Part shown: piece after piece, positions 2,298-42,995 of the stretch
Layout of the letters: each line of letters opens with the position of its first letter
Position numbering within the stretch: position 1 is the first letter of the stretch
From: Deltaproteobacteria bacterium
GTDB lineage: Bacteria; Desulfobacterota; GWC2-55-46; UBA9637
Reading direction: 5' to 3'
NCBI GenBank assembly: GCA_016219285.1
Contig: JACRNJ010000035.1
Location: 1-52,446 of the forward strand
DNA length: 52,446 nucleotides
Program-made: the position numbers and the translations under genes
The notes under the pieces: model-generated
What the model saw: the letters and a program-made list of their open reading frames with translations, nothing else
Databases searched by the model: none
What the model was told of the DNA's origin: nothing

Positions 2298-2368
2298 CAA
2301 TCTTCGCCAGAGAATATAGCTCAATTTTTAGGGTTATAACTCAAATGACCATAAAGGAGCAGATAATT

Positions 2369-4252: not shown

Positions 4253-4279
4253 ACATAAGTAAATTCCGGGGGTCGTAAC

Positions 4280-5086
4280 ATGAAAACCTTTTTAAAAGTA
4301 GTAATATTCAGTGTAGCGGTAATACTTTTTTATGCCTTTTATGCCAATGTAATGATTCCGCAGGTCAGGCCTGCACCTCCTCCGGCAGAGGCAAAGCTGG
4401 ATATGGGCAGTCTGACTATGGAGCAGTTTATACATATGGGGGATGAAATCTTCCATGGCAAAGGAACATGCGAACTTTGCCACAACCCTGTTGGCGGAAG
4501 GGCGCCTTTGCTGGATCAGGTCGGCAAAATAGCTGAGGAAAGAATCAAAGATCCTCGTTATAAAGGTAAGGCAAAGACAGGCGAGGAATATATACGGGAG
4601 TCCATGAAAGAGCCGTCTACATTTGTTGTTGCGGGTTTTGGCGTAAAAGGGACAAATGACACCCAGAGTCCCATGCCGGTTGTTACTTCAGGCGCCATAG
4701 GCTTGAAAGATTTTGAGGTTGATGCTGTTATAGCTTATTTCCAGCAGAAGGCAGGTGTTACAGTAACAGTACAACTGCCAAAGGAAACGCCAAAAGCTAC
4801 TGAAGAAACTCATGTGGCAGATCCTGCCAAGAGTGGTGAAGAGGTTGTAACCAAGTATGGTTGTGGTGCCTGTCATAAAATAGCCGGACAGCAAGGCGCA
4901 CTTGGCCCAGACCTTACAAAGATAGGGGCAAAGAAGAATAAAGATTATCTCAGAAGGGCTGTATTAAATCCCAATGCAGATATTGCCCCCGGGTTTCCTG
5001 CTGGTATGATGCCTCCAGATTTTGGGACTAAGATGCTATCCGGAGAATTTGAGATACTAATTGATTATATGGTGAAATCGAAATAG
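4280..5086 (+). CDS. Membrane-anchored diheme cytochrome c
   Basis: This 268-residue protein has an N-terminal membrane anchor (about 5-25) and a Pro-rich linker. It has two CxxCH heme c sites, CELCH at 64-68 and CGACH at 195-199. The second domain is a compact class I fold with a candidate Met ligand in PAGMMPPDFG. The first heme is followed by about 120 residues with no second heme but with a PMPVV segment typical of a distal methionine. The gene lies 27 bp behind the bd-like oxidase with a GGGGG-type ribosome site. It is the probable immediate electron donor on the periplasmic side. Confidence 0.9.
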   Translation: MKTFLKVVIFSVAVILFYAFYANVMIPQVRPAPPPAEAKLDMGSLTMEQFIHMGDEIFHGKGTCELCHNPVGGRAPLLDQVGKIAEERIKDPRYKGKAKTGEEYIRESMKEPSTFVVAGFGVKGTNDTQSPMPVVTSGAIGLKDFEVDAVIAYFQQKAGVTVTVQLPKETPKATEETHVADPAKSGEEVVTKYGCGACHKIAGQQGALGPDLTKIGAKKNKDYLRRAVLNPNADIAPGFPAGMMPPDFGTKMLSGEFEILIDYMVKSK

Positions 5087-5185
5087 ATTTACGAATTACG
5101 AATTTAGATTTACGATTTTAGATTTTAGATTTACGATTTTAGATTTTTAAATCGTAATTCGTAAATCGTAATTCGTAAATTACAT
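5087..5185 (+). repeat. AT-rich palindromic spacer within the cytochrome operon
   Basis: Short words such as TTTACGAATTACGAATTT and ATTTTAGATT are repeated and then answered by their complement (AAATCGTAATTCGTAAAT), so the spacer can fold into a long AT-rich hairpin. A closely similar element lies after the next gene at 5967-6056. Confidence 0.75.
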
Positions 5186-5204
5186 AAATGGGAGGTCTAA
5201 CGGG

Positions 5205-5966
5205 ATGAAGATACCGAGACTTTTATTATTTGTAATAATTGTAGTTATTAGCTACGGCATATTTAAAGCGCCTGGGATTTTGCTTAATCAGCCCATACCA
5301 TCAAGTCTGATTGTAATGTATATGTTCTTTGCAGTGGTGACAACGCTCCTCTGGATAACTTCTACAGAAAAGGATATGCAGGGGCTTGTTGGCCCGATAA
5401 AAACTATGATTCAAGACCCCACCAAAAAGACGTTAAGGAATATTGTATTTGTTATTGTTCCTCTGGTGGCAGGCGGTATAACGTATACGCAGTTAAAGCC
5501 CAGTTACGAGGCGCCAGTAGAATTAAGGTCTATCCACCCTGCCCCCCCATCTACGGTTAAGGCCTTCGGCAAGACATTTAATCTTGCTACGCTGGTAAAC
5601 CCATATAGAAAATTAGAAAAAGAAGACCCTGCAAAGTTTACCCAACTGGTTAAAGAGGGCGGTGAGGTATATTTTAAAAATTGTTTCTACTGCCATGGAG
5701 ATAAGTTAGATGGCAAGGGGCATTATGCGCATGGATTTAACCCATTGCCTCTGGCCTTCACAGATATAGGAACCATTGCCCAGCTTCAGGAATCATTTGT
5801 ATTCTGGAGGATTTCAACAGGCGGGCCTGGCCTGCCAAAGGAAGCCGCGCCATGGGTATCAGCCATGCCTGTCTGGGAAAACTTCATTACAGAAGATGAG
5901 GTCTGGAAGGTCATTCTCTTTTTATATAATTATACAGGATATGCGCCGAGGTCTTGGGAGAAATAG
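5205..5966 (+). CDS. Membrane-bound monoheme cytochrome c
   Basis: The 253 residues contain three predicted membrane helices (about 4-25, 33-52, 78-97) followed by a periplasmic class I cytochrome c domain. That domain has one heme site, CFYCHG at 160-165, and a distal segment with AMPVWENF supplying a likely Met ligand. GGGAGG precedes the start. The three-helix membrane part is unusual for a simple electron carrier and may dock it to the bd-like oxidase. The protein sits in the middle of the cytochrome operon between two AT-rich hairpins. Confidence 0.88.
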   Translation: MKIPRLLLFVIIVVISYGIFKAPGILLNQPIPSSLIVMYMFFAVVTTLLWITSTEKDMQGLVGPIKTMIQDPTKKTLRNIVFVIVPLVAGGITYTQLKPSYEAPVELRSIHPAPPSTVKAFGKTFNLATLVNPYRKLEKEDPAKFTQLVKEGGEVYFKNCFYCHGDKLDGKGHYAHGFNPLPLAFTDIGTIAQLQESFVFWRISTGGPGLPKEAAPWVSAMPVWENFITEDEVWKVILFLYNYTGYAPRSWEK

Positions 5967-6056
5967 ATTTCAGATTTACGATTTAAGATTTTAGATTTAA
6001 GGTTTTTAAATCGTAATTCGTAAATCATAATTCGTAAATCATAATTCGTAAATAAT
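5967..6056 (+). repeat. Second AT-rich palindromic spacer in the cytochrome operon
   Basis: The same vocabulary as at 5087-5185 recurs: GATTTACGATTTAAGATT is followed by AAATCGTAATTCGTAAATC and two further ATAATTCGTAAAT units. It can form a hairpin between two co-directional cytochrome genes and could tune mRNA processing. Confidence 0.7.
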
Positions 6057-6076
6057 AAAAGGATGGTCAAATACCT

Positions 6077-7606
6077 ATGAGAAAAAGACTGTTATCCCTA
6101 ATTGTTTTAAGCATAATGCTGATGTCAATCCAGGCGTGGGCGGCACAAGGTAATAAAGAAAACGGAAAGACAATATACGATAAAAAATGCTGGTGGTGTC
6201 ATGGTGAGAATGGGGCAGGAGACGGTCCTGCAGCCAAATTTTTAAATCCTCCGCCAAGGGATCTGACAGCAGGCTGGTATAAATTTAAGACAACGCCATT
6301 TGATGAAATAACCCCTGCGGACGAAGATATTTTCAGAATGATAAGCGGCGGCATGAATCACATCTCTCTCTGGAAAGGGATGTCAGGCACATCCATGCCC
6401 AATTGGGACGATGTGCTGAAGGAGCAGGAGCGGTGGGACATTGTTGCGTATATAAAATCATTCAGCGGTCTGGATAAGCCTGCAAAAGGGCCGATTGATT
6501 ATAAAAACCAGATAAAATCATCCAAAGAGAGCATTGAAAAAGGCAAAGAGACTTTTAAGAAGATGTGTGCAGAGTGTCATGGCGAGGAAGGAAGAGGCGA
6601 CGGCACAAAAAAGTTAAAGGATGACCTCGGCTTCAGGACATGGCCAAGAAACCTGACAAAACCATGGACATTCAGGGTAGATAATGATCCAAAAGAGATA
6701 TACACCCGTATAAGCAATGGGATTCCTGGCACGCAGATGCCATCTTTTGCAGACCCCACAAGCAAAAAGACACTTTCAGATGAAGAAAGGTGGAATGTTG
6801 CAAATTATATTGTATCTATTGCAGATGATGTTAAAAGGCCAAAGGATGATACTGTTCTGAAAGCCATGAGGCTGGAGGGAGAACTTCCTGATAAGGTTGA
6901 TGACCCAAAATGGAGTGAGGCAGAATCGATAAGCTTTTATATGATTCCTCAGATAATTGCAAAAGAGAGATTCTTTACGCCTTCATTGGATAGCATAACA
7001 GCAAAGGCATTTTATAATGGTAAAGAGATTTCAATACTCCTTGAATGGGATGACAGGACAAAGAGCATTCCAGGAGATGAAAAGGCTAAGGAGATAGCGG
7101 AAGGCGATGTTCTTGAAGATAGCGTAGCTATTCAGCTGCCTGTGACTATACCTGAAGAGATGGAAAAACCATATTTTGGCATGGGTGATTCTGCAAGGCC
7201 TGTGAATATCTGGCAGTGGAAGAGCGGTAAAAAAGATGCCTCCGAAGCTATAAAACTTCTTAATGCCAATGGATTTCAGAAGGTTGAACAGAGAGATGCG
7301 GGAAAAACAGGATTAAGGGCAACGGGTATTTATAATAATGGGACATGGCGTGTTGTAATGAAAAGACAGCTATCTACAGAGGAAAAGGCTAAAGATATAC
7401 AATTTGAGGAAGGCAGATATACCCCAATTGCATTTGCTGCATGGGATGGGAGCAATGGAGAATCAGGCTCCAAACATGTAATGACCACTTGGTCTTGGCT
7501 GCTGCTTAAGCCTGCAACACCAAAGTCAACATACTTTATTCCCCTGATTGTTGTGTTAGTGGTTTTTGGCGGAGAGCTTTTACTGGCCAGGGGTCAGAAG
7601 AAGTAA
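6077..7606 (+). CDS. Diheme cytochrome c fused to ethylbenzene-dehydrogenase/NxrC-like heme-binding domain
   Basis: The 509 residues begin with a Sec signal peptide (1-22, ending AWA). Two class I cytochrome c domains follow, with CWWCHG at 38-43 and CAECHG at 164-169. A beta-rich EB_dh domain (about 255-480) resembles the gamma subunit of DMSO-reductase-family enzymes such as ethylbenzene dehydrogenase and nitrite oxidoreductase NxrC, which carry a b-type heme. A C-terminal membrane anchor (YFIPLIVVLVVFGGELLLA) ends the protein. No molybdopterin subunit is encoded nearby, so it is probably an electron-transfer hub rather than an enzyme subunit. It is the last gene before a terminator. Confidence 0.88.
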   Translation: MRKRLLSLIVLSIMLMSIQAWAAQGNKENGKTIYDKKCWWCHGENGAGDGPAAKFLNPPPRDLTAGWYKFKTTPFDEITPADEDIFRMISGGMNHISLWKGMSGTSMPNWDDVLKEQERWDIVAYIKSFSGLDKPAKGPIDYKNQIKSSKESIEKGKETFKKMCAECHGEEGRGDGTKKLKDDLGFRTWPRNLTKPWTFRVDNDPKEIYTRISNGIPGTQMPSFADPTSKKTLSDEERWNVANYIVSIADDVKRPKDDTVLKAMRLEGELPDKVDDPKWSEAESISFYMIPQIIAKERFFTPSLDSITAKAFYNGKEISILLEWDDRTKSIPGDEKAKEIAEGDVLEDSVAIQLPVTIPEEMEKPYFGMGDSARPVNIWQWKSGKKDASEAIKLLNANGFQKVEQRDAGKTGLRATGIYNNGTWRVVMKRQLSTEEKAKDIQFEEGRYTPIAFAAWDGSNGESGSKHVMTTWSWLLLKPATPKSTYFIPLIVVLVVFGGELLLARGQKK

Positions 7607-31371: not shown

Positions 31372-31431
31372 TTGTTGAACTGGCGTTTCGAAAAACTTGT
31401 CCATTTATTATTACTGCCATTATCTATAACT

Positions 31432-32769
31432 ATGGATACACCAAGAATTTCATCTGCATTGCAAGGGATAGGAACCAAGACCAGGGGCATTAAAGACCTG
31501 ACCATAGTGGATTATGCCTTTATGCTGATGAGGGGCATTGTTATAACATGTGGTTTTTTCTGGCTGGTTTTACATCCGTATCCCGATACATTAAAGTTAT
31601 GGATTATAATTCCTTTTCTCATTTTTATCACTTACAGCATTATCGCTCACGGATTGATACTTATCTGGCCTCAAAAGATAGAAACAATATATTTTGCCTG
31701 CTTAAGCCTGGATTTAATCTTTATAGGAATATTTATAAAATTATCAGGCGGCTTTAACAGCATACTGTTTCTTATAATCTATCCGCCAATTGTTATTCAT
31801 TCATTTTATTATGGATTTTATAGGGGGATCGCCCTTTCCGCTGTTGCCTCTATTGTTTATGTCATAGCTGTATATGACCAGTGGTGGCTGCTGCAATGGA
31901 CAGACATGGCATTCAGGATATTTATAATGTTTCTCATTGCGGGTTTTATGGGTTTTATTTCTGAGAGGGCAAAGCATGACCGAGATGAACTTATAATAAC
32001 TCAGAGGAGATTGGAATTTCTTCAAAAAGAACTGGAAAAGGCATATAAAAATCTTCAGGACGTAAAATCGCAGGTTGAACAGTCGGAAAAGCTTGCATCA
32101 ATAGGAAGGCTGTCGGCAGAGCTCGCCCATGAGATTAATAACCCACTGGACGGCATAAAGAATTGCCTTGCCGTTATTAAAACTGAAACAGAGGACACTG
32201 AGCTAAAAAAGAAGTATTTTGAGTTAATAGACGAAGCGTTATATGATATTGAATGCGCTGTTAGAAACCTTCTGGGTTATGCAAAGAGGCATGTGCCTGT
32301 ATGGGAAGAAGTGGATATAAATGGTGTTTTAGAAAGAACTATTATTATGACCGATTATAAATTACAAAACACAGGGATAGCGGTTAAAACTAGTTTTGAG
32401 GCTAATATTCCCGCTGTAATTGGAGACTCTCATCAACTGCAGGAAGTCTTTTTTAACATTATACTCAATGCTCTGGATGCAATGCCGAAAGGCGGCACGC
32501 TTACTGTAGAAACAAGTAAGGCAGGCAATTTTGTAGATATTAAAATAATAGATACCGGCATCGGCATTAGCCATGATGATATGGCTAATATCTTTCAACC
32601 ATTCTATACAACCAAATTGCTTGGCGAAGGGACAGGATTAGGATTATCTGTAAGCCTTGAAATTGTGCGAAAGCACGACGGAGATATAAATGTTTATAGT
32701 GAGCAAGGGAAAGGAGCTGTCTTTAATATAACACTGCCGGCAGCAATAAAAGCGAGCGCACCCTGTTAG
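31432..32769 (+). CDS. Membrane-bound sensor histidine kinase
   Basis: From ATG 31432 the protein has 445 residues; a TTG at 31372 would add 20, and neither has a clear ribosome site. About six membrane helices (residues 25-185, no periplasmic domain) are followed by a coiled coil and an NtrB-like transmitter. The H-box is LSAELAHEINNPLDGIKN; the N-box FNIILNALDAMP, G1 DTGIGI and G2 GEGTGLGLSVS follow. It pairs with the NtrC-type regulator 150 bp downstream. The last codons and the stop lie inside a TTAGAGA/TCTCTAA palindrome, so the C-terminal ASAPC is probably repeat-derived. Confidence 0.9.
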   Translation: MDTPRISSALQGIGTKTRGIKDLTIVDYAFMLMRGIVITCGFFWLVLHPYPDTLKLWIIIPFLIFITYSIIAHGLILIWPQKIETIYFACLSLDLIFIGIFIKLSGGFNSILFLIIYPPIVIHSFYYGFYRGIALSAVASIVYVIAVYDQWWLLQWTDMAFRIFIMFLIAGFMGFISERAKHDRDELIITQRRLEFLQKELEKAYKNLQDVKSQVEQSEKLASIGRLSAELAHEINNPLDGIKNCLAVIKTETEDTELKKKYFELIDEALYDIECAVRNLLGYAKRHVPVWEEVDINGVLERTIIMTDYKLQNTGIAVKTSFEANIPAVIGDSHQLQEVFFNIILNALDAMPKGGTLTVETSKAGNFVDIKIIDTGIGISHDDMANIFQPFYTTKLLGEGTGLGLSVSLEIVRKHDGDINVYSEQGKGAVFNITLPAAIKASAPC

Positions 32770-32808: not shown

Positions 32809-32885
32809 TGTAGTTGCCGATTATCGGCGTTTTTAAGCCTGCTACTGATAGGCGCAAGAATAGACCCATAAATGGGCAAACTACA
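32809..32885 (+). repeat. MITE-like element with TGTAGT...ACTACA ends (copy 2)
   Basis: The unit begins TGTAGTTGCCGATTATCGGC and ends GGGCAAACTACA, like the copy at 12494-12571. It overlaps an upstream alternative start (32872) of the response regulator, so it forms that gene's leader. Confidence 0.65.
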
Positions 32886-32919
32886 AATTATGAATGGGGA
32901 GAAGCACAATAGTCAATAT

Positions 32920-34311
32920 ATGAATGTCCTTATTGTAGAAGATGAAAAGATTAAAAGGATAACTTTAACAGATGCTCTCTTGAAACAAGGTTATGCTGTG
33001 TTAGCCATGGAAAATCCTATTGAGGCGCTCAATATATTCAAAGAGCGGGAATTTGATGTTGTAATTACCGATATAAGGCTTCCGCATATGGACGGGCTGG
33101 ATTTTTTAAAAGAAATAAAAACCTTAAAACCAGAGATTACGGCTATTGTAATGACTGCATATGCCACAATAGATACAGCCATAAAGGCAATGAAGCTTGG
33201 AGCCTATGATTATATAACAAAGCCTTTTTCATCAGAAGAGATGCTCCTTATAATTGAAAGGCTAAAGGACTTCAGAAGGATTGTTGAAGAAAACATTAAA
33301 CTTAAGCAAGAGATAACGGAACGGTACCGTTTTGGCAATATAATAGGAAAGAGCAAGAAGATGCGGGATGTTTATGAGTTGATTAAGACAGTTGCCCCAT
33401 CTGATGCAACAACCCTTATTGTTGGAGAAAGCGGAACAGGCAAGGAGCTTATTGCAAATGCCATCCATTACAACAGCCCAAGAAAAGATAACCCATTTAT
33501 AAAAGTTAGCTGCTCAGCCCTTGCCGAGACCTTGTTGGAGAGCGAACTATTTGGACATGAAAAGGGCGCATTCACCGGCGCTGTTAAGGAAAGAAAGGGG
33601 AGGTTTGAACTGGCTAACAACGGCAGCATCTTTCTGGATGATATAGATGATATACCTCTTTCAATGCAGACGAAGCTGCTTCGGGTACTTCAGGAAAAGG
33701 AGATAGAGAGGGTCGGCGGAACCAAAACTATTAAAATAGATATTCGCATAATATGCGCAACCAAGGTTGACCTTTTAAAGCTGGCAAAACAGAGAAAATT
33801 CAGGGAGGATCTTTATTATCGTTTAAATATAGTCCCCATAAACCTCCCTCCCTTAAGGGATAGGAAAGAGGATATCCCGCTTCTCGTAGAGTATCTGCTG
33901 AATAAATACTCATCCAAAGGAGAAAAGAAAACCTTTTGCCACGAAGCAATGAAGCTCTTGATAAATTATGATTGGCCAGGCAATGTAAGGGAGCTGGAAA
34001 ATGTGGTAGAAAGGGTAGTAACCCTTACAAGATCTAATGATATTAGAGTTGAGGATCTTCCTGATTTTCTCATGGCATCACCGGAAAAGTTATGCGACAG
34101 ACATCTGATTGATGTTATGACAGAAGCCGCCTCATTTGAGGATATGATAAAGGATATGGAGAAAAGGCTCCTTATCCTGGCCATTGAAAAGGCAGGCGGA
34201 AATAAGAGCGAAGCCGCAAGGATACTGAAGATGAAAAGAGAGACATTGAGGGACAAGGTAGAAAAATACGGAATCTCGGAATTATATCAAGCAACGAAGG
34301 CCAAATCATAA
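32920..34311 (+). CDS. NtrC-family sigma-54-dependent response regulator
   Basis: The 463 residues comprise a receiver domain with phospho-acceptor Asp51 (VVITDIRLP), an AAA+ domain with Walker A GESGTGKE and the sigma-54-contacting GAFTGA loop, and a Fis-type HTH (GGNKSEAARILKMKRETLRDK). Possible starts at 32872 and 32890 would add 10-16 residues; 32920 is chosen because the receiver fold begins there. It activates promoters used by sigma-54 RNA polymerase in response to the upstream kinase. No clear -24/-12 site was found in the downstream metal-related genes, so the regulon is unknown. Confidence 0.92.
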   Translation: MNVLIVEDEKIKRITLTDALLKQGYAVLAMENPIEALNIFKEREFDVVITDIRLPHMDGLDFLKEIKTLKPEITAIVMTAYATIDTAIKAMKLGAYDYITKPFSSEEMLLIIERLKDFRRIVEENIKLKQEITERYRFGNIIGKSKKMRDVYELIKTVAPSDATTLIVGESGTGKELIANAIHYNSPRKDNPFIKVSCSALAETLLESELFGHEKGAFTGAVKERKGRFELANNGSIFLDDIDDIPLSMQTKLLRVLQEKEIERVGGTKTIKIDIRIICATKVDLLKLAKQRKFREDLYYRLNIVPINLPPLRDRKEDIPLLVEYLLNKYSSKGEKKTFCHEAMKLLINYDWPGNVRELENVVERVVTLTRSNDIRVEDLPDFLMASPEKLCDRHLIDVMTEAASFEDMIKDMEKRLLILAIEKAGGNKSEAARILKMKRETLRDKVEKYGISELYQATKAKS

Positions 34312-34365: not shown

Positions 34366-34424
34366 CTATTTTTATGGTCTATTTTATGGTCTTGACATGT
34401 ATGCAAGAATTTGTTAATTATAAA
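34366..34424 (+). promoter_or_regulatory. Promoter with tandem upstream repeats
   Basis: TTGACA (34392-34397), 17 bp and TAATTA (34415-34420, running into TATAAA) form a promoter. Directly in front lie two near-identical units, CTATTTTTATGGT (34366-34378) and CTATTTTATGGT (34379-34390). Their in-phase position against the -35 suggests a regulator binding site. It precedes the Met/His-rich secreted protein gene. Confidence 0.5.
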
Positions 34425-34456: not shown

Positions 34457-34849
34457 ATGAGAAGGTCATTTGCAATAGTCCTGCTTTTAGCCGTGATTAC
34501 CATGAATATGGACATGGTTTGCCAATCGTTATGCCTGGCAGGGCGCGGCGATATGGCCGGCGCCCATTCATCTCACAAGACAACAAATCACGAGATGCCA
34601 AAAGCAGACATGTTCCCGGTTACACATCACGACACCCAAGAGTCGCACCATAACATGCCTCAAACATCCATAAAGTGCGACTGCCCTGCAGATCAAGTGG
34701 CAGTTCTTGGTTTTGAACTGACCATAGCAGACACTTTTGCAGATTTAAAACCCTCGTCACATATCATATCAAAAATCCATTCTCAAAAGGTCGTCTTTTT
34801 AAGCAACATACCCATTCCATTAGAAGGGCCTCCCAAGCTCATATCCTGA
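34457..34849 (+). CDS. Secreted Met/His/Cys-rich protein, copy A
   Basis: This 130-residue protein has an N-terminal hydrophobic signal (RRSFAIVLLLAVITMNMDM), then CQSLC and a His/Met-rich central part (HSSHK, NHEMPK, THHDTQESHHNMP), then CDC. A conserved C-terminal half (VLGFELTIADTFADLKPSSH) follows. The clustered His, Met and Cys are what a periplasmic copper or other soft-metal binder would show. Copy B lies at 36879-37271 with an almost identical second half. I do not recognise the family. It heads the metal-related block. Confidence 0.75.
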   Translation: MRRSFAIVLLLAVITMNMDMVCQSLCLAGRGDMAGAHSSHKTTNHEMPKADMFPVTHHDTQESHHNMPQTSIKCDCPADQVAVLGFELTIADTFADLKPSSHIISKIHSQKVVFLSNIPIPLEGPPKLIS

Positions 34850-35155
34850 TTTCTCATAGCCAGTTCCACTCATAAAAATTGTAAATTAAAGATTGGAAAT
34901 TTGAAATTTTAAAATGTGAAACCAATCTTGCAATTTATAATTTGCAATTTGCATTTTACAATTTGAGCGAAGCGAATCTTCTTGTTTCCAAGCTATGTCT
35001 GCTGTATCACAGGCATGTCCAGCTTGGGAACGCCGATGTCTAAAAAGCTACAGCTTTTTTCTATGGAGCCGGAGCTTCATAAACAATTGCATTGCCAAGC
35101 ATAGCTTGGTAACGAGAAGAAATGACATATCAAACAAAACGAGGAGGTAAAGACA
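34850..35155 (+). repeat. 306-bp intergenic region with three hairpins
   Basis: AT-rich arms at 34876-34965 (AAATTGTAAAT against ATTTTACAATTT, plus GATTGG against CCAATC) come first. They are followed by GTTTCCAAGCT/AGCTTGGGAAC at 34984-35031 and AAAAAGCT-ac-AGCTTTTT at 35042-35059. No gene is present before the ribosome site GAGGAGG of the SmbP-like gene. Confidence 0.6.
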
Positions 35156-35458
35156 ATGAAAAGGAAAATATTTGCCGTAATGCTTGTATCGCTGTTTTTC
35201 ACTGCATTTAATGCAGGCACGGTCTACGCAGAGACCCATGGTGCTAAAGAACATGCCAGCGAAGGGGTAAATCACGCAAAAGAGGGCATAAACCATGTGA
35301 AAGAGGCAATAAAACACATGGAGGAATCTATCAAGGCAGGCGGCGACTCTCATGCAAAAGAGGCCGTTGAACACGCAAAAGAGGCAATCAAGCACGCAGA
35401 GGAATCTATAATGCATGCGGAAAAGACCTCTGAAAAGACAGCGCCAAAGAAAAAGTAA
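35156..35458 (+). CDS. SmbP-like small metal-binding protein
   Basis: The 100-residue protein has a signal peptide (about 1-24, ending VYA). The mature part is built of helical repeats with periodic histidines: EHA, NHAKEGINHVKEAIKHMEE, HAKEAVEHAKEAIKHAEES, MHAEK. This regular His/Lys/Glu pattern matches the small periplasmic metal-binding protein SmbP of ammonia oxidisers, which binds several copper ions. GAGGAGG precedes the start. Metal specificity is inferred. Confidence 0.8.
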   Translation: MKRKIFAVMLVSLFFTAFNAGTVYAETHGAKEHASEGVNHAKEGINHVKEAIKHMEESIKAGGDSHAKEAVEHAKEAIKHAEESIMHAEKTSEKTAPKKK

Positions 35459-35473
35459 ATCTACTTGCTGATA

Positions 35474-35498
35474 GGGCGGACATTTAAATTGTCCGCCC
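35474..35498 (+). repeat. GGGCGGAC hairpin, copy 1
   Basis: GGGCGGAC (35474-35481) pairs perfectly with GTCCGCCC (35491-35498) around ATTTAAATT. It is followed by CAGTATTTCTAAAA. A near-copy precedes the TonB receptor gene at 37641-37667 with the same flank, so it may be an operator or attenuating hairpin shared by two outer-membrane genes. Confidence 0.7.
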
Positions 35499-35530
35499 AG
35501 TATTTCTAAAATAAAAGAAGGAGGCTTATA

Positions 35531-36341
35531 ATGAAGAAAATAGCGTCAGTAGTAATCTACACAATTGGATTTTTCATGTCGTTAACCAGTTTAAGTTTTG
35601 CATGTGACTTTTGTATTTTGTCACAGGGTATATCTCCCTTGGAAACATTTAAAGGCGCCGGTATCCGGGTAAATGAGAGGTATACACTTTTGAATAGTAT
35701 TTATAAGGGAACAGAGAAGATTACAAATCCAGGTGCAAAAGAGGAGTATTGGACAACTGAGATTACAGGTTTTTACGGCATCACAGAAAACCTTATGCTT
35801 CTGGGAGCAGTTCCTTATAAAAAAACCAGCATGAATGGTGAGCTTATGGTCAATCCGGATGGAACCGTGGATTTGGACCCCATGACAGGGCCATCTCCAA
35901 CTTGGCACAGGCTCTACAGATTATCTCGTAGGCCTTTCTTTAAGTCATGCTATCCAAAAACTTGCTCTATCTGCCAATCTCTTGGGCGCCATTACAACAG
36001 AGGGAAAGGCTGGAGATAAGAAACATCAGTACGGGAATACGTTGAACTATGATATCACGGCAAAATACAGGGTCTATCCTGCTGAGTTTGCGCCTTCAAC
36101 TACGCAGCTTTTCTTTTCACTTGGCCTGAACGGGGAATTAAGGGAAAGGGAAAAGGAGAATGGGGTGGAGGTTGTTAATTCAGGTGGGCATACAACCTAT
36201 CTCACACCGGGGGTTCAGGTTGTGGCAGCGCCTCACTGGGTATTTGAGCTATCTTATCAGCATCCTGTTTATCACAACCTATATGGAACTCAGCTTGCTG
36301 AAGACTACAAGGTGAATGGCGCAGTAACATATCTATTTTAA
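35531..36341 (+). pseudogene. Outer-membrane beta-barrel (MetA-pathway-type transporter) gene with a frameshift
   Basis: The first frame (35531 to about 35897) gives a signal peptide and a mature start ACDFCILSQGISPLE, then barrel-like strands. The second frame resumes at about 35898 (QLGTGSTDYLVGLSLSHAI) and runs to 36341, ending in an alternating pattern with terminal Phe. Joined, they make about 269 residues of an outer-membrane protein resembling the putative MetA-pathway phenol-degradation/transporter barrels. One extra base near 35894-35898 explains the break, which is either a real mutation or a consensus error. The CxxC at the mature N-terminus hints at metal or disulfide chemistry. 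The next gene starts directly after its stop. Confidence 0.75.
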
Positions 36342-36878
36342 ATGAAGATTATAATCTTAAGTCTCATACTGGGCTTGACGCTATTATTTGCCGATTCTTG
36401 CTATAGCCTTGATAAGGCGCATCTCAATGCCATTGGCATCCAGGAACTTAAGCAGGAGGCGCCTGATTTTACCATTAAAGGCCCTGATGGAAATATGATG
36501 AGCCTGAAGGACTTCATGGGCAAGGTGGTCATCCTGCACTTCTGGGGCACATGGTGCAAACCGTGCAAAGAGGAGTTTCCTCTCTTTGAGAAGATGTACC
36601 AGAGGGTTAAAGATAAGGATGTGTTTTTTATCCCTGTGTCCATAGACGCAAAGGCAACGCAGGAAGATATAAATGCCTTTGCAAAAAGGCTTGGCGCAAC
36701 CTTTCCGGTATTCCTTGCAAGGGACGGCAATGTGACTGATAGATACTGGACATGGGGCGTGCCTGTTACATATTTTGTTGACAAGAAAGGTTTGATAGCA
36801 GGCAGGGCAATTGGGCCGAGGGATTGGGCATCGGATGGTGTCAATGCTGTTATAAACGCCTTATTGGAAGAAAAATAA
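36342..36878 (+). CDS. TlpA/ResA-like periplasmic thioredoxin
   Basis: This 178-residue protein has an N-terminal signal or anchor (about 1-20) and a thioredoxin fold with the active site FWGTWCKPCKEEFP and the cis-Pro region GVPVTYFVD. Such proteins reduce disulfides in apocytochromes c or in copper chaperones of oxidases. It starts at the base following the stop of the barrel gene and is followed immediately by the Met/His-rich copy B, so the three are one translational unit. In this context, keeping metal-binding cysteines reduced is the attractive reading. Confidence 0.9.
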   Translation: MKIIILSLILGLTLLFADSCYSLDKAHLNAIGIQELKQEAPDFTIKGPDGNMMSLKDFMGKVVILHFWGTWCKPCKEEFPLFEKMYQRVKDKDVFFIPVSIDAKATQEDINAFAKRLGATFPVFLARDGNVTDRYWTWGVPVTYFVDKKGLIAGRAIGPRDWASDGVNAVINALLEEK

Positions 36879-37271
36879 ATGAAAAGATTTTTTGCAATAG
36901 TTCTGCTTTTCGCCGTGCTTGCCATGAATATGGATATGATTTGTCAATCATTGTGTCTGTCAGGACATGGTGATACGACTAATGGCCATTCATCTCATAA
37001 GATGGCAAGCCATGAGATGCCAAAGGGCGAAATCTGTCCGACTACGCGTAATGATGCTAATCATTCTCACCATGACATGCCTCAAACATCCATAAAGTGC
37101 GACTGCTCGGCAGACCAAGTGGCAGCTCTTGGTTTTGAACTGACCATAGCAGACACTTTTGCAGATTTAAAACCCTCATCACATATCATATCAAGAATCC
37201 ATTCTCAGAAAGTCATGTTTTTAAGCAACATACCCGCTCCATTAAAAGGACCTCCCAAGCTCGTATCCTGA
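36879..37271 (+). CDS. Secreted Met/His/Cys-rich protein, copy B
   Basis: The 130 residues parallel copy A (34457-34849): signal KRFFAIVLLFAVLAMNMDM, CQSLC, a His/Met stretch (HSSHKMASHEMPKGE, HSHHDMP), CDC, and the tail GFELTIADTFADLKPSSHII. The second halves are nearly identical at the DNA level while the middle has diverged. This points to recent duplication or gene conversion. It starts one base after the TlpA stop. Probable periplasmic metal-binding protein, family unknown. Confidence 0.75.
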   Translation: MKRFFAIVLLFAVLAMNMDMICQSLCLSGHGDTTNGHSSHKMASHEMPKGEICPTTRNDANHSHHDMPQTSIKCDCSADQVAALGFELTIADTFADLKPSSHIISRIHSQKVMFLSNIPAPLKGPPKLVS

Positions 37272-37387
37272 TTTCTCTCCACATTCAGATTAAGATTAAA
37301 TAAAAGGACTAGGGATAGAGCCTATAGATTGGTTTTTGCTAATCTCAAGCCCCTAGACCCTAGCCTCTATTTTTACGGGAGGTATTT

Positions 37388-37627
37388 GTGTTCTATAAAC
37401 TAATCACTGCATGCGGCCATATGGGCGCAGGAAACAGTTTTGAAAGGGTCTGGTTTATAAAGGGCAGCAACCCCATTACTGTTCTTGAAAGGGCAAAGCG
37501 ACTTCCTCGCGTAAAGAGGAAGGAAACATCCCTTGGCATCAAGCTAATTAAAGAGATAAGCGAGGAAGAATACATAAATGGCATAAATAGCAAGAGTGAA
37601 GCAGTCAAGATATTGCTGAATGGATAA
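37388..37627 (+). CDS. Small GHxGAGN-family protein without zinc finger
   Basis: The 79 residues begin with GTG behind GGGAGG (37377-37382). The sequence FYKLITACGHMGAGNSFERVWFIKG, then KRLPRVKRKE and EEYINGI, aligns along its length with the first 75 residues of the protein at 1056-1397, but no C2H2 finger follows. The two define an unrecognised family. Its location between the metal-binding proteins and the TonB receptor may indicate a regulatory or accessory role. Confidence 0.65.
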   Translation: MFYKLITACGHMGAGNSFERVWFIKGSNPITVLERAKRLPRVKRKETSLGIKLIKEISEEEYINGINSKSEAVKILLNG

Positions 37628-37640
37628 CACAATGCCTGAC

Positions 37641-37667
37641 TGGGCGGACATTTAAAGTATCCGCCCA
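37641..37667 (+). repeat. GGGCGGAC hairpin, copy 2
   Basis: TGGGCGGA (37641-37648) pairs with TCCGCCCA (37660-37667), followed by GCATTTCTAAAAC. It matches copy 1 at 35474-35498 including its flank and lies 27 bp before the TonB receptor start. Confidence 0.7.
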
Positions 37668-37693
37668 GCATTTCTAAAACAAAGGGGAAATTC

Positions 37694-39784
37694 ATGAAGA
37701 TATTTGCTCTTTTTCTTTTTAGTATAAATATATTTTTATTGGCCTTCAGTGCCTATGCAGAAGAAGGCGCCACTAAGCTTGAGGATATTGTTGTTACCGG
37801 CACAAGGGAGGCTGAGGCAGCAAAAGAGACGCCTCAGACAGTTGGTGTAGTAAAGGGCGGGGAAATAAAAGAAATAAAACCGTCCCATCCCTCGCAGGTT
37901 ATGAACAGGGTTCCGGGTGTTTGGATAAGGCAGACAACGGGGGAGGGGCATGTTACAGCAATCCGCCAGCCTCTTACAACACAGCCTCTTTACCTCTTTC
38001 TTGAGGACGGCATACCGATAAGGTCAACAGGATTTTTTAACCACAATGCGCTTTATGAAATCAATATGCCGGGCGCTGACAGGATAGAGGTTATAAAAGG
38101 TCCCGGAACCGCCTTGCACGGAAGCGATGCAATAGGCGGGGCAATAAATGCAATGACAAGGGCGCCGTCTCTGACACCTGAGATAGAGTTCACCCCTGAG
38201 GCAGGTGAACACGGCTGGTATCGCCTCCTTTTCAGCGGCAGCAATACATGGGACAGCCACGGTATTAGACTTGATTTGAATGATACGCATACGGACGGCT
38301 GGCAGGATGATACTGCATACGACAGGCAGGCAGCAACCCTTCGCCATGATTACATGTTTGATACAACCTTAAACATAAAAACTGTGCTTGCCTATTCCAA
38401 TATTGACGGACACGGCGAATCGGCAGGATTGTCAAAACAAGATTATGAGACCCGGCCATCATACAGCTATACGACCTTTAATTTCAGAAAAGTTGATGCA
38501 TTCAGACTCTCCTTTGATATTGAAAAAGAGGTGTCAGAAGGCAAAGGCCTTATAAGTGTTATCCCATATTACAGAGTGAATAAGATGGACTTACATCCGG
38601 GATGGGGCATATTCAGCATTGGTGGAAACAACTACAGGGGTTCTGATTACACTACAAAGTTTCAGTCTTATGGACTACTTGGTAAATACCGTTACGATTT
38701 TGAACCGATGAGGACAAGATTGGTAATGGGCGTTGACCTTGACTATAGCCCGGGTTCATACTTTGAAAGGAGAACTATCGTAACAAAAACAGGGGATAGA
38801 TATACATCCTATACCTATGACACATCTACGACCAACAACTACGACTATGATGCAACATTTACAGGGATTTCGCCGTATATTCATACAGAAGTATCGCCAT
38901 TGGAGAAATTAAGATTAACCGTTGGCGCCCGTTATGATGATATGTCCTATGATTATGAGACCCGCCTTGCAGCAAATGCAAACAGGCCTGCAGATACAAA
39001 AAAAACCTTCTCCCATCTAAGCCCAAAGGCGGGGTTGACTTATTCATTTACAAAAGATGTCAGTGCATTCCTTTCATACAATCACGGCTTCCGCGTGCCT
39101 TCATCAGGCGACTTATTCAAAGGAAGCAATGGCACTGCCGCAACAACAGTAAATCTTCAGCCAATTAAGATTGATAGTTATGAAACAGGCGTCAAGGCAG
39201 GTTTTCTGAACAACAAACTAACCCTTGATGCCTCTTTATATCTGATGCAGAAAAAGGATGATATTGTCTCCTACAGGGTAGCTGCCAACTTAAGTGAAAA
39301 ACGTAATGCGGGTGAGACCGAGCATAAAGGTGTTGAGATTGGGCTTGGCATAAAACCGATAAACGAGGTCGGACTTAATGTGAGTTATTCTTATGCAGAA
39401 CATACATACAAGAACTACAGAGTTTCGTCAACTTTAGACTACAGCGGCAAGGAGATATCCTCTGCGCCAAGAGAGATAGTAAATACCCGTTTATATTATG
39501 AACCTCATATCTTAAACGGCGGAAGGACTGAGATTGAATGGGTGAAACTCGGTAGTTACTGGCTTGATGATGGAAATACTGAAAAATATGACGGCCACAA
39601 CCTTTTCAATGTGAGGGCATCTTGCAAATTCAACCCATCATGGGAACTTTATGCAAGGGCAATAAACGTTACAGATGAACTCTATGCTGAGAGCGCCTCA
39701 AAATCATCTACTGGCTCTGCCCAATATAACCCGGGCATGCCGCAGACATTTTATGCAGGGTTTGTTTACCACTGGGGAATATAA
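37694..39784 (+). CDS. TonB-dependent outer-membrane receptor
   Basis: The 696 residues have a signal peptide (about 1-22), a TonB-box-like LEDIVVTGTR, a plug domain (about 45-155, with RIEVIKGPGTALHGSDAIGGAINAMT) and a 22-strand-type barrel. The proteins of this type import siderophores, cobalamin, or metal chelates; plug and size resemble copper/siderophore receptors. It is followed without a gap by a BNR protein and then its own ExbB, ExbD and TonB. That dedicated motor, plus the upstream metal-binding proteins, supports metal or metallophore uptake. The ligand is unknown. Confidence 0.92.
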   Translation: MKIFALFLFSINIFLLAFSAYAEEGATKLEDIVVTGTREAEAAKETPQTVGVVKGGEIKEIKPSHPSQVMNRVPGVWIRQTTGEGHVTAIRQPLTTQPLYLFLEDGIPIRSTGFFNHNALYEINMPGADRIEVIKGPGTALHGSDAIGGAINAMTRAPSLTPEIEFTPEAGEHGWYRLLFSGSNTWDSHGIRLDLNDTHTDGWQDDTAYDRQAATLRHDYMFDTTLNIKTVLAYSNIDGHGESAGLSKQDYETRPSYSYTTFNFRKVDAFRLSFDIEKEVSEGKGLISVIPYYRVNKMDLHPGWGIFSIGGNNYRGSDYTTKFQSYGLLGKYRYDFEPMRTRLVMGVDLDYSPGSYFERRTIVTKTGDRYTSYTYDTSTTNNYDYDATFTGISPYIHTEVSPLEKLRLTVGARYDDMSYDYETRLAANANRPADTKKTFSHLSPKAGLTYSFTKDVSAFLSYNHGFRVPSSGDLFKGSNGTAATTVNLQPIKIDSYETGVKAGFLNNKLTLDASLYLMQKKDDIVSYRVAANLSEKRNAGETEHKGVEIGLGIKPINEVGLNVSYSYAEHTYKNYRVSSTLDYSGKEISSAPREIVNTRLYYEPHILNGGRTEIEWVKLGSYWLDDGNTEKYDGHNLFNVRASCKFNPSWELYARAINVTDELYAESASKSSTGSAQYNPGMPQTFYAGFVYHWGI

Positions 39785-41151
39785 TGTTGAAAATTTCTAA
39801 TTTCAAATCCTCGATTAAAACCTTCGAGGACAAGATTCTAATTTCCAATATTGTGGCGGCAGTCGTCTTATTTGCGGCTATTTGTACGGACTGCATGGCA
39901 GGCGAGTTTTCGTTTAGTCCTCCTTTCAGCATCAGCCATCCCGACAAAAAGGTTTCTCCTCCTGCTGCAGCAGTATATGATGGCAAGATATTCATTTCTT
40001 ATATCAGGGAAGAAGGTGATGTATATGTTACAACATTGTCAATGGATGGTAAGACACTGATTGTGCCGGTAAACCCCGTTAGAAGTCCACATACAGAAAA
40101 CACTAACAGAACCAATCAACCGGATACATCCAATATAGAGACTTCTAACGGGGTAAAGGTGAATGAGAAAACTGCCCCTGCCAATGGGATTCATCAAAGT
40201 CCCGGCATGGCTGTGGGGCCAAAAGGTGAAATCTATCTTACATGGACAAGCCCCCGGGAAGGCGGTGATTTTGCTGCGGATATCCGGTTTGCCCGTTCTC
40301 TTGACGGGGGGAAGACATTTCTGCCGTCCACAGCAGTTAATGATAATGTATTGCCAAGCTCACGGGGGTTTGAATCTATCTCGGTCGGAAAAGACGGCAT
40401 CATCGCTATTGCGTGGCTTGACGGCAGGGAGAAACTTGTCCCTGCGGGCATTAAGCAGGGGAAGAAGGGCGTTTCATCCGCATACTTTGCCAGGTCAACG
40501 GACGGCGGCAAGACATTTGAGAAAAATATGCGGCTGGACGATAATGTCTGTCCTTGCTGCAGGACAGCAGTAACTGCCGGACCAGGCGGTGTAGTATATG
40601 CCTCATGGCGGAAGGTTTTTGATGGAGATATTCGCGATATGGTGGTTGCCGGTTCTGTTGATAATGGCAAAACATTTAATGAGCCTGTTGTAGTAAGCCG
40701 AGACCAGTGGGCTATACAGGGGTGTCCTCATAGAGGGCCTTCTATGAATATTGATGAGAATGGAGTTCTTTATTATACATGGTATACAGAGGGGAGCGAT
40801 GGCCTTCCGGCCGTATATCTTTCCGTATCAAGAGATAGAGGCAAAACATTTATTTTTAAACAATCACTGCCATCGGGCGGCAGATTTTTTCCTGACCACC
40901 CAAGATTGGCTGTTGCAAAGGATGGGACAGTCTATGTGGTGTGGGAGGAGAAGACACCGGTCTTGACTAGGATACTATTTGCATCATATCAAGATGGAAA
41001 GGGGTTTTCTAAACCAATGCAGTTGAATCAGGGTGTAAGGAGGTCTCATGAGCCAATTTTGTTGGCAGGCGACGATGGAAGCGTATATGCTGTCTGGGCT
41101 TATGATGAGATAAGATTTTCAAAGGTAGTAATCAGGGCAATGAAACCATAA
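39784..41151 (+). CDS. Secreted BNR-repeat (sialidase-like fold) protein with CPCC motif
   Basis: The ATG overlaps the receptor stop by one base. The 455 residues contain an N-terminal hydrophobic segment and several Asp-box repeats (SLDGGKTF, STDGGKTF, SVDNGKTF, SRDRGKTF) of a six-bladed propeller. A Cys motif DDNVCPCCRTAV lies near the centre. Sialidase catalytic Arg/Tyr/Glu residues are not evident, so a binding function is more likely than hydrolysis. Residues about 98-124 (NPVRSPHTENTNRTNQ...) come from an in-frame palindromic insertion (40074-40153). Tight linkage to the TonB receptor suggests a periplasmic or surface partner for the same ligand. Confidence 0.8.
   Translation: MLKISNFKSSIKTFEDKILISNIVAAVVLFAAICTDCMAGEFSFSPPFSISHPDKKVSPPAAAVYDGKIFISYIREEGDVYVTTLSMDGKTLIVPVNPVRSPHTENTNRTNQPDTSNIETSNGVKVNEKTAPANGIHQSPGMAVGPKGEIYLTWTSPREGGDFAADIRFARSLDGGKTFLPSTAVNDNVLPSSRGFESISVGKDGIIAIAWLDGREKLVPAGIKQGKKGVSSAYFARSTDGGKTFEKNMRLDDNVCPCCRTAVTAGPGGVVYASWRKVFDGDIRDMVVAGSVDNGKTFNEPVVVSRDQWAIQGCPHRGPSMNIDENGVLYYTWYTEGSDGLPAVYLSVSRDRGKTFIFKQSLPSGGRFFPDHPRLAVAKDGTVYVVWEEKTPVLTRILFASYQDGKGFSKPMQLNQGVRRSHEPILLAGDDGSVYAVWAYDEIRFSKVVIRAMKP
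40074..40153 (+). repeat. 80-bp palindromic element inserted in the BNR gene
   Basis: CCCCGTTAGAAGTC (40074-40087) and its exact complement GACTTCTAACGGGG (40140-40153) bound the element. It is translated in frame, giving a polar, low-complexity loop. The theme TTAGA/TCTAA with flanking C/G runs recurs at 32766-32797. Confidence 0.85.
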
Positions 41152-41221
41152 AACCCTCTCTCCAGTCCCCTTATCAAAGGGGGTTAGGGGGTTGTGGGAG
41201 AGGGAAGGGTGAGGGGGATTT
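41152..41221 (+). repeat. REP-like palindromic spacer before exbB
   Basis: CCCTCTCTCC and GGAGAGGG flank a CCCCTTatcaAAGGGG hairpin. The same CCCTCTCCC...GGGAGAGGG words are translated inside the P-type ATPase gene at about 22245-22343, so both belong to one interspersed family. The end of the element doubles as the exbB ribosome site (GAGGGGG). Confidence 0.7.
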
Positions 41222-41812
41222 ATGTTTGAGATTATTGCAAAAGGCGGCATTGTCATGATACCGCTCTTGCTTTGTTCTGTTATCTCTATCGCAATCATTG
41301 TAGAGCGGGCTGTGTTCTGGCTGAAGCAGAGGAAAGGGATTATGCCGGCCCATTTGCTTCAGATGACAGAGGATAAAAACTGCGGCGAACTTATGAAGGA
41401 TGTCAGCGGCAGAGGTTCTTATATCGTCAGAATAATTTCCAGCGGGATTATGCAGAAGAATGCCTCTGCAACCCTTGCCATGGAAACAGCAGCCATGCAG
41501 GAGATTGCGATGATGAAGAAATATCTGTCGGCCCTGGACACTATTATAACCCTTGCCCCGCTGCTTGGGCTTCTTGGCACGATTGTAGGAATGATACAGT
41601 CTTTTGACATCATGTCGGTGGTCGGCATTGGCCAGCCGCACTCTGTTACAGGCGGTGTTGCAGAGGCCCTTATTGCAACTGCCTTCGGGCTTACGGTGGC
41701 CATTACGACACTTGTTCCCTACAATTATTTTCTTTCCAAAGTAGAGAAGGCAGAGGAAGAGATGGAGCAGTATGCAACAAGAGTTGAAATGATTTTGAAA
41801 CAGCAGGAATAA
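41222..41812 (+). CDS. exbB: ExbB/TolQ/MotA-type proton channel subunit
   Basis: The 196 residues have three membrane helices and the family core LGLLGTIVGMIQSF followed by GVAEALIATAFGLTVAI. With ExbD it converts proton flow to movement of TonB. It is the first of three co-directional genes, with exbD two bases downstream. The preceding TonB receptor and BNR gene imply a dedicated energy supply for this uptake system. Confidence 0.94.
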   Translation: MFEIIAKGGIVMIPLLLCSVISIAIIVERAVFWLKQRKGIMPAHLLQMTEDKNCGELMKDVSGRGSYIVRIISSGIMQKNASATLAMETAAMQEIAMMKKYLSALDTIITLAPLLGLLGTIVGMIQSFDIMSVVGIGQPHSVTGGVAEALIATAFGLTVAITTLVPYNYFLSKVEKAEEEMEQYATRVEMILKQQE

Positions 41813-41814
41813 TT

Positions 41815-42261
41815 ATGAAGATACGTTCTTTCAGAAAACAGCCTAAAAAGGCGCGCATAGAGATTATCCCTATGATAGATACAATGTTTTTTCTGCTGGT
41901 ATTTTTTATGATAGCCACCCTTTCCATGACCGTCATGCGTGGTATGCAGGTGAATCTGCCAAAGGCCGAGGCCTCAAAAAGCGATTTAAAGGACGATATC
42001 TCTGTTACACTCTCAAAAGATGGCTATCTGTATTTTAATAAACAAAAAATTCAAAGGGCAGAACTACCGACGCTGCTTCTGGCCGAGGTCTCAAAGAATC
42101 CCGGTATCCTGGTGATGATTAGCGCCGATGAAGAGGTGAGCCACGGAAACGTAGTTGAGCTGATGGATGCAATAAAGACAGCCGGCATAAACAGACTGGC
42201 TATAGCAACAAAGAAGCCAGTCTCTGTAAGTTTTAAGCAGGGAAAGGAGAGAAAGCCATGA
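41815..42261 (+). CDS. exbD: ExbD/TolR biopolymer transport protein
   Basis: The 148-residue protein has one N-terminal helix with the proton-carrying Asp (IIPMIDTMFFLLVFFMIATL) and a periplasmic domain (VSLSKDG-like ISVTLSKDGYLYFN, then ISADEEVSHGNVVELMDAIKTAGI). It pairs with the upstream ExbB. Its stop overlaps the tonB start by 4 bp. Confidence 0.94.
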   Translation: MKIRSFRKQPKKARIEIIPMIDTMFFLLVFFMIATLSMTVMRGMQVNLPKAEASKSDLKDDISVTLSKDGYLYFNKQKIQRAELPTLLLAEVSKNPGILVMISADEEVSHGNVVELMDAIKTAGINRLAIATKKPVSVSFKQGKERKP

Positions 42262-42995
42262 TGAGCAGCCTTAAAACACCCTTTATCATTTCTCTTTTAT
42301 TCCATAGCATGGTGCTTTTTTCAGTGGCGGCTTTGTATAAGCCTGTGAAGGAGGCATTCATGGATGTTACGCCGCTGGAATTTGTTCAGTTGACCGAGGA
42401 AAAAGAAATCGTTCAGCCGGAAAAGGAGAGAAAGAAGGAAGTTGCCATTCCCCAAAAGGCAGAGATTGCTCCTTTGCAGACGAAGACAGAAGAAAAACAG
42501 GAAGAAATAAAAAATCAAGAGATTAAACCAGTTCAGGATATTGAAACTGATATCAGCGAATCTGCGCAAAAAGAACATGTTGAAATTCCATTATCCACTG
42601 TTGTCGATTCTAATGTTATTGATGCGCAAGATGTTTATGCGCAGGCTGTTCCTGTTGTTGATAATATTCCTGCTATTGATAATATCACTATCCCTGATAT
42701 TGCCAATAAAACAAACAGGTTTATAAGCATGGTAAGGTCAAAGATAGAGAAGTCAAAGTTTTACCCCCGATGGGCAAGGGAGAGGGGATATGAGGGTGTT
42801 GTAGGAGTGCATTTTGTAATACAGCCGGATGGTAGTGTGGCCAATATCAAAGTTGTGAGGCCGTGCCACTGCGATATGCTAAATAAGGCGGCATGCGAGG
42901 CCATAAAAAAGGCAGCGCCGTTTAGCGCGATGCCTGATGAATTAAAAAACAAAGAGATGACAATGGAGATAGATATTGGTTTCAGGCTGGAGTAA
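42258..42995 (+). CDS. tonB: TonB-family energy transducer
   Basis: The 245 residues include an N-terminal membrane helix, a Glu/Lys/Pro-rich spacer (about 45-100) that spans the periplasm, and a C-terminal TonB domain (about 165-245; YEGVVGVHFVIQPDGSVANIKVV). The C-terminal domain contains a CHCDMLNKAAC insertion with three cysteines that is not usual for TonB. It contacts the TonB box of the receptor encoded four genes upstream. Confidence 0.92.
   Translation: MMSSLKTPFIISLLFHSMVLFSVAALYKPVKEAFMDVTPLEFVQLTEEKEIVQPEKERKKEVAIPQKAEIAPLQTKTEEKQEEIKNQEIKPVQDIETDISESAQKEHVEIPLSTVVDSNVIDAQDVYAQAVPVVDNIPAIDNITIPDIANKTNRFISMVRSKIEKSKFYPRWARERGYEGVVGVHFVIQPDGSVANIKVVRPCHCDMLNKAACEAIKKAAPFSAMPDELKNKEMTMEIDIGFRLE

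Follow-up and report, generated by a model that had tools for sequence, protein, structure and literature searches.

The window analysed here covers positions 1-52,446 of contig JACRNJ010000035.1 (assembly GCA_016219285.1), from an uncultured groundwater bacterium assigned to the Deltaproteobacteria. At positions 34457-42995, entirely on the + strand, it carries a group of genes in which the initial annotation had seen a dedicated TonB-driven uptake system for a metal, perhaps copper. Their order is leader 1, a small metal-binding protein (SMBP), a broken outer-membrane protein gene, TlpA, leader 2, a GHxGAGN-family protein, a TonB-dependent receptor, a BNR β-propeller, ExbB, ExbD and TonB. 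The two genes that we call leaders had been described as a pair of Met/His/Cys-rich 130-aa proteins; they are present as such and are paralogous to each other, with DNA 80% identical over 300 nt.

A sigma-70-like promoter (TTGACA-18-AATTAT, 34392-34421, +) lies just 5′ of leader 1 (34457-34849), a candidate CruR/CutF-like copper-sensing upstream open reading frame (ORF) of 130 aa with a signal peptide, a His/Met-rich sequence, CxC at residues 74-76 and PP at residues 125-126. Behind it follow a 306-nt leader region (34850-35155), which holds an AT-rich inverted repeat with GAGCGAAGCGAAT (34876-34964), and the gene for the SMBP (35156-35458, 100 aa), a member of the SmbP family (PF16785) by score (1.7e-11; 44.7 bits, cut-off 29) with His-rich repeats. 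The PF13557-like outer-membrane protein gene (35531-36341) and the gene for an exported TlpA/ResA-type thioredoxin with the motif WCKPC (36342-36878) precede leader 2 (36879-37271), a second putative CruR/CutF-like upstream ORF whose start codon stands directly behind the TlpA stop and 5′ of the receptor segment. After a further leader region (37272-37387) come the GHxGAGN-family gene (37388-37627; GTG start, 79 aa), encoding a small cytoplasmic protein, the receptor gene (37694-39784), the gene for an exported BNR propeller with the motifs CPCC and GCPHRG (39784-41151), ExbB (41222-41812) and ExbD (41815-42261), the latter two recognised by homology and position, and TonB (42258-42995), with PCHC(D/E)xLNKAAC in its C-terminal domain. 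The SmbP-like, TlpA/ResA, GHxGAGN, receptor, BNR, ExbB, ExbD and TonB genes thus all lie where they had been annotated, and the extra cysteines claimed for the C-terminal domain of TonB are three in number.

Conservation of the gene set

The receptor-BNR adjacency is kept in ten other genomes of the class, usually together with TlpA, ExbB, ExbD and TonB. The order in these loci is leader(s), TlpA, leader, GHxGAGN, receptor, BNR, ExbB, ExbD and TonB; the outer-membrane gene or the SMBP gene may stand before or after, and some loci have a single leader. The BNR gene was found in 12 of the 63 genomes of the class (E 1e-30), and the SMBP and TlpA accompany the receptor cluster in part of the relatives. 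Outside the class, the same adjacency occurs in Nitrospinota (L062-L064), in Azonexus and Dechloromonas, and in one gammaproteobacterial metagenome-assembled genome (MAG). BNR relatives follow large outer-membrane β-barrel proteins with a carboxypeptidase regulatory domain in Acidobacteria (L066, L067 and L070), and in marine Gammaproteobacteria the family follows a CopL-like ORF and TlpA. The nearest named loci belong to ‘Deltaproteobacteria’ MAGs from groundwater and sediment. The search for the same gene set in other genomes was thus successful in relatives within the class, in Nitrospinota and in some Beta- and Gammaproteobacteria; different families of the class, and phyla beyond it, share the gene order, so that the set is conserved more than chance would allow.

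Not all neighbours share in this conservation. A histidine kinase (31372-32769, +) and an NtrC-type regulator (32872-34311, +) do lie immediately upstream, as had been noted, but they are absent beside the cluster in the relatives’ loci; with a neighbourhood lacking them elsewhere and a promoter of sigma-70 type here, their role as a dedicated regulator was rejected. The outer-membrane gene does encode the expected N-terminal CxxC, as CDFC, but is split over two frames (35531-36019 and 35982-36341) by an internal deletion plus frameshift: compared with intact relatives (e.g., L058:4958-5932, 324 aa), some 55-60 codons are missing between ‘DPMTG’ and ‘HLQLGTGSTD’ and the frame is changed, which marks the gene as either decayed (a pseudogene) or wrongly assembled. 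The SMBP differs from other SmbP proteins in standing within an uptake operon, and not all relatives have it. The protein is 100% identical to that of L045:2075-2377 in G004, the genome of a different species of this genus, with the neighbouring proteins at 62-81%, a pattern that suggests recent transfer or gene conversion.

The GHxGAGN gene usually stands between leader 2 and the receptor, and its product matched no family. As a cluster-specific part it was rejected, since paralogs occur elsewhere, including in the window itself: a second family member (1023-1397, +) has a UspA-like gene as its neighbour and a gene for a cytochrome bd-like oxidase downstream, and similar UspA-GHxGAGN pairs exist in L148, L152 and L154. 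Finally, a 48-nt element forming a perfect GGGCGGACA hairpin is present in two copies, and a gene for an outer-membrane protein begins shortly behind each: copy 1, with the hairpin GGGCGGACATTTAAATTGTCCGCCC (35468-35515, +), precedes the broken gene and copy 2 (88%; 37636-37683, +) the receptor gene. In L043, L046 and L048, too, comparable hairpins stand ahead of the receptor gene.

Geometry and position of the leaders

The leaders deserve special attention. Both consist of about 130 residues in a fixed arrangement: a signal peptide with its hydrophobic N-terminus, CxC, 45-46 residues, PP, four residues and the stop. An alignment of 16 homologs has no residue common to all of them except the initial Met and the PP near the C-terminus. 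To avoid circularity, a leader profile cut before residue 113, and so devoid of the PP tail, was run against the ORFs of the loci and genomes; it retrieved 24 distinct homologs, and every one of them (24/24) has PP no more than 13 residues from its end, mostly at exactly four. Among other ORFs of similar size, PP occurs in the last eight residues in 54 of 1003 (5%) and at the exact place in nine of 1003. The spacing of 45-46 residues between CxC and PP is kept in 19 of the 20 family members that bear CxC, the exception being in G010. Pairwise ratios of non-synonymous to synonymous substitution rates (dN/dS) of 0.19-0.53 indicate that the leader protein sequence is under purifying selection.

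This anatomy recalls CruR of Bordetella, a copper-sensing upstream ORF of a TonB-dependent copper transporter, which consists of CXXC, 45 residues, RAPP and three residues (PMC9426467). Copper bound to the nascent CruR lifts an arrest, and Rho-dependent termination follows before the transporter gene (PMC9426467). In the CruR-CrtA(BfrG)-CrpH system of Bordetella pertussis, as in our locus, a short exported leader with a Cys motif, a 45-residue spacer and C-terminal PP stands at the head of an operon with a TonB-dependent transporter (PMC9426467, PMC12914433); some CrtA operons also carry ExbBD/TonB, and both systems have a link to heme-copper oxidases. Differences are equally clear: the leaders have CxC in place of CXXC and EGPP (in the homologs also KG, EN, DR and others before PP) in place of RAPP, and there are two of them instead of one. 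No PepSY_TM gene was seen at our locus, the receptor is on another branch, and the BNR propeller, TlpA, SMBP and cysteine-bearing TonB are additions.

CutF of Rhodobacter capsulatus is a related exported sensor of opposite sign to CruR, and CopL and CzcI are CutF-like families (PMC9973294). By the rule formulated for such proteins (fewer than 150 aa, an N-terminal signal peptide, PP in the last 15 residues and a same-strand gene within 1000 nt; PMC9973294), both leaders qualify, with 130 aa, PP at 125-126 and next genes on the same strand 306 and 116 nt away; a Cys metal motif is a further shared feature (PMC9973294). They differ from CutF in spacing their motifs like CruR and in having import cargo, instead of an oxidase or efflux; CutF is, moreover, switched on by copper, the opposite of what import needs. 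No Pfam family matched either leader, and only single members of the leader family gave weak matches, to CzcI (6.5e-4) and CopL (0.046). Membership in DUF2946, the family of CruR, was rejected, as the model gave no match and the motif is CxC. Judged by anatomy, the leaders would nevertheless work like CruR, from outside DUF2946.

Their positions point the same way. Leader 1 heads the operon, and in most relatives a TTGACA and a TATAAT-like box precede the first leader; no evident Shine-Dalgarno sequence was found before leader 1 of the window. Leader 2 opens the receptor segment. The cargo behind family members is varied: a leader homolog precedes a small cytochrome c gene in L149 and L150 (genomes G059 and G060), followed in G060, whose leader has lost the second Cys of its CxC, by a gene of the COX1 family (of oxidase or nitric oxide reductase type); in G076 a family member precedes a GHxGAGN gene and a multihaem cytochrome. 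A regulator would be expected to keep its own form while the genes behind it change, and these positions, at the operon head, before the receptor segment and before varied cargo, support a role in cis. In the f2 genomes G008 and G010 there is a second, diverged leader further upstream. A genome of the same genus without the receptor cluster (G001) has, at L042:6684-8651, one leader without CxC before two proteins without Pfam match.

The initial annotation had taken the leaders for secreted metal-binding proteins. As ordinary periplasmic binders they would capture copper or another soft metal, and PP would be a structural tail; their signal peptides, their Cys/His/Met content and the purifying selection at the protein level are in keeping with this. 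It is less easily reconciled with a family of 16 aligned sequences identical only at the start Met and PP, with fixed distances from CxC to PP and from PP to the stop, and with the leaders’ constant place as the first gene of a segment whose further genes vary; CutF and CruR, furthermore, act in cis and are undetected as proteins (PMC9973294, PMC9426467). We regard a role as ordinary secreted binders as improbable. Geometry and position favour revising that part of the annotation: the leaders are probably not metal sponges but, like CruR, CutF and CopL, sensors that respond to copper as nascent chains and act in cis.

At the RNA level there are leads only. Right after the leader-2 stop, folding predicts pairing of UCUCC (37276-37280) with GGAGG (37378-37382), the Shine-Dalgarno sequence of the next gene, with a long hairpin and then a U-run between the two, and a like pairing in L045; this is no more than a lead. 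The leader-2 region folds alike in the window and in L045, with z scores (-1.3 and -1.9) that are not significant. Sequences after the leader stops are mildly enriched in C over G compared with controls (p about 0.01 by sampling), at most a hint of a Rho site. A search of Rfam gave no credible match. The AT-rich inverted repeat found behind leader 1 of the window sits behind leader 2 in another family (L049, L051 and L052).

Receptor, propeller, TonB and copper demand

The receptor has plug and barrel domains (PF07715 + PF00593) and five invariant histidines in 14 sequences (His 65, 86, 117, 199 and 544). Its AlphaFold model (mean predicted local distance difference test score, pLDDT, 65; plug <50) is too poor for locating them. 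The nearest solved receptors are YncD/PqqU (E 6.7e-47, profile), with CrtA (9rvq) far weaker (3.8e-26), and the receptor is accordingly placed on a PqqU/YncD-like branch. Three identities were rejected. As PqqU it scores 115.9 bits against a cut-off of 1200 (NF041535), about one-tenth of the latter; there is no context for pyrroloquinoline quinone (PQQ), and PqqU lacks the receptor’s plug motif GEGHxTxIRQPLTTxP...STGFFNHNALYE. CrtA was dismissed on the weaker match to 9rvq alone. OprC of Pseudomonas aeruginosa shares TonB-dependent copper import and often stands behind DUF2946 leaders (PMC9426467); the receptor has neither the CxxxM-HxM site of OprC nor any conserved Cys in the 14 sequences, and TIGR01778 was not among the best 25 of 29 models.

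The propeller was modelled well (pLDDT 86). Its matches in the PDB by Foldseek are generic sialidase/lyase propellers (prob 1.0), with which it shares the fold and one BNR repeat; it differs from them, at 10-17% identity, in that the invariant CPCC and GCPH replace the sialidase active site. C256, C258 and C259 of CPCC and C314 of GCPHRG are invariant in 27 sequences that are 18-74% identical. TonB has the C-terminal domain of its family (PF03544), is adjoined by ExbB and ExbD, and carries the PCHC/AAC cysteines in addition; C203, C205 and C213 are invariant in all compared system copies with intact TonB. Our literature search retrieved nothing on a TonB receptor, a BNR propeller and copper together.

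The genome itself has a heme-copper oxidase accompanied by SCO1: one of its contigs begins with a COX1-family gene, which is partial, and continues with a CtaB-like UbiA gene and a SCO1/SenC gene. About 7 kb separate the cluster from a gene for cytochrome c oxidase in G027. As for the suggested co-occurrence with copper enzymes, it is uninformative across genomes, as COX1 is present in all 63 genomes of the class. A cytochrome bd-like oxidase gene, followed by genes for c-type cytochromes and a protein with an ethylbenzene-dehydrogenase-like haem domain, is located at 2345-7606 of the window.

A probable copper import operon under two leaders

We favour, with somewhat better than even confidence, the interpretation of the locus as a copper-chelate import operon in which two CruR/CutF-like switches, placed in series, lift repression when copper is short. 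In shortage, ribosomes finishing leaders 1 and 2 would pause at the C-terminal Pro-Pro, and the pause would keep the downstream mRNA transcribed or translated. Leader 1 would control the SMBP and TlpA, and leader 2 the GHxGAGN protein, receptor, propeller, ExbB, ExbD and TonB. Copper, presumably the metal concerned, would bind to the CxC/His/Met part of the emerging leader and release, rather than cause, the stall, so that the segment behind is switched off as in Bordetella CruR. The receptor would import a copper chelate with energy from the ExbBD-TonB of the operon; copper at the outer membrane or beneath it might be handled by the propeller and by TonB with its cysteines, TlpA could keep the thiols of these two reduced, and the SMBP may buffer copper en route to the heme-copper oxidase. 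A precedent is CrtA, which imports chelated copper for heme-copper oxidases (PMC12914433) and does so with a His and without conserved Cys or Met (PMC12914433). Of the dedicated TonB-driven, copper-linked uptake proposed initially, the core has stood, with the receptor, BNR, ExbBD and TonB staying together, SMBP and TlpA partly so, and the cysteines invariant, but the parts assigned to the leaders and the regulator had to be revised.

Several observations weigh against this interpretation. DUF2946 (PF11162) matched neither leader, none of the 16 homologs and nothing in any genome of the order, and the cysteine motif departs from CXXC. CxC is missing from the leader relatives in G001 and G027, the spacer is short in G010, and G001 retains a decayed leader without having uptake genes. 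No conserved RNA structure could be demonstrated for the leader regions: stems are predicted with z from -0.1 to -2.8 and no shared fold. CutF-like proteins are not all copper-specific, some being linked to nickel/cobalt, and the receptor, nearest to YncD/PqqU and far from CrtA, bears no known signature of copper receptors.

The operon might instead import another substrate, either an organic cofactor such as a PQQ-like molecule or a complex of a metal other than copper (an iron chelate, nickel or cobalt), with leaders sensing that metal. SmbP-type proteins bind several metals, which adds to the case made by the receptor’s solved relatives and the nickel/cobalt-linked CutF-like proteins. The low PqqU score argues against it, as do the heme-copper oxidase with SCO1 in the genome and the CxC of the leaders, which are of the Cys type tied to copper, the nickel/cobalt type being His-only. 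We consider such a substrate unlikely. Least probable of all is a thiol-redox or electron-transfer system at the outer membrane in which metals matter for regulation only, as the TlpA WCKPC, the invariant TonB and BNR cysteines and the leaders before cytochrome genes (G059/G060/G076) might suggest: a dedicated receptor with ExbBD-TonB argues for import, and the SMBP and leaders are of metal-binding types.

The copper import operon can be extended to a bolder proposal, which we advance as doubtful: the two serial nascent-peptide copper sensors would belong to an undescribed family, leader 1 metering periplasmic handling and leader 2 import, and PCHC...AAC of TonB with the CPCC propeller would act as a gate, of copper or redox type, through which the receptor’s energy supply depends on the copper state.

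Little is known of copper acquisition across the Gram-negative outer membrane, and experiments have described the sensing of copper by nascent peptides for a few proteins only (CruR and CutF). The invariant cysteines of TonB and the propeller point to two candidate sites at which an import machine may handle copper or thiols. If our interpretation is true, a leader family invisible to Pfam, occurring twice in one operon and in phyla for which such leaders are hardly described, would show this control to be more widespread than is known, and the simple rule of CxC, 45-46 residues, PP, four residues and stop would serve to find copper operons in uncultured groups.

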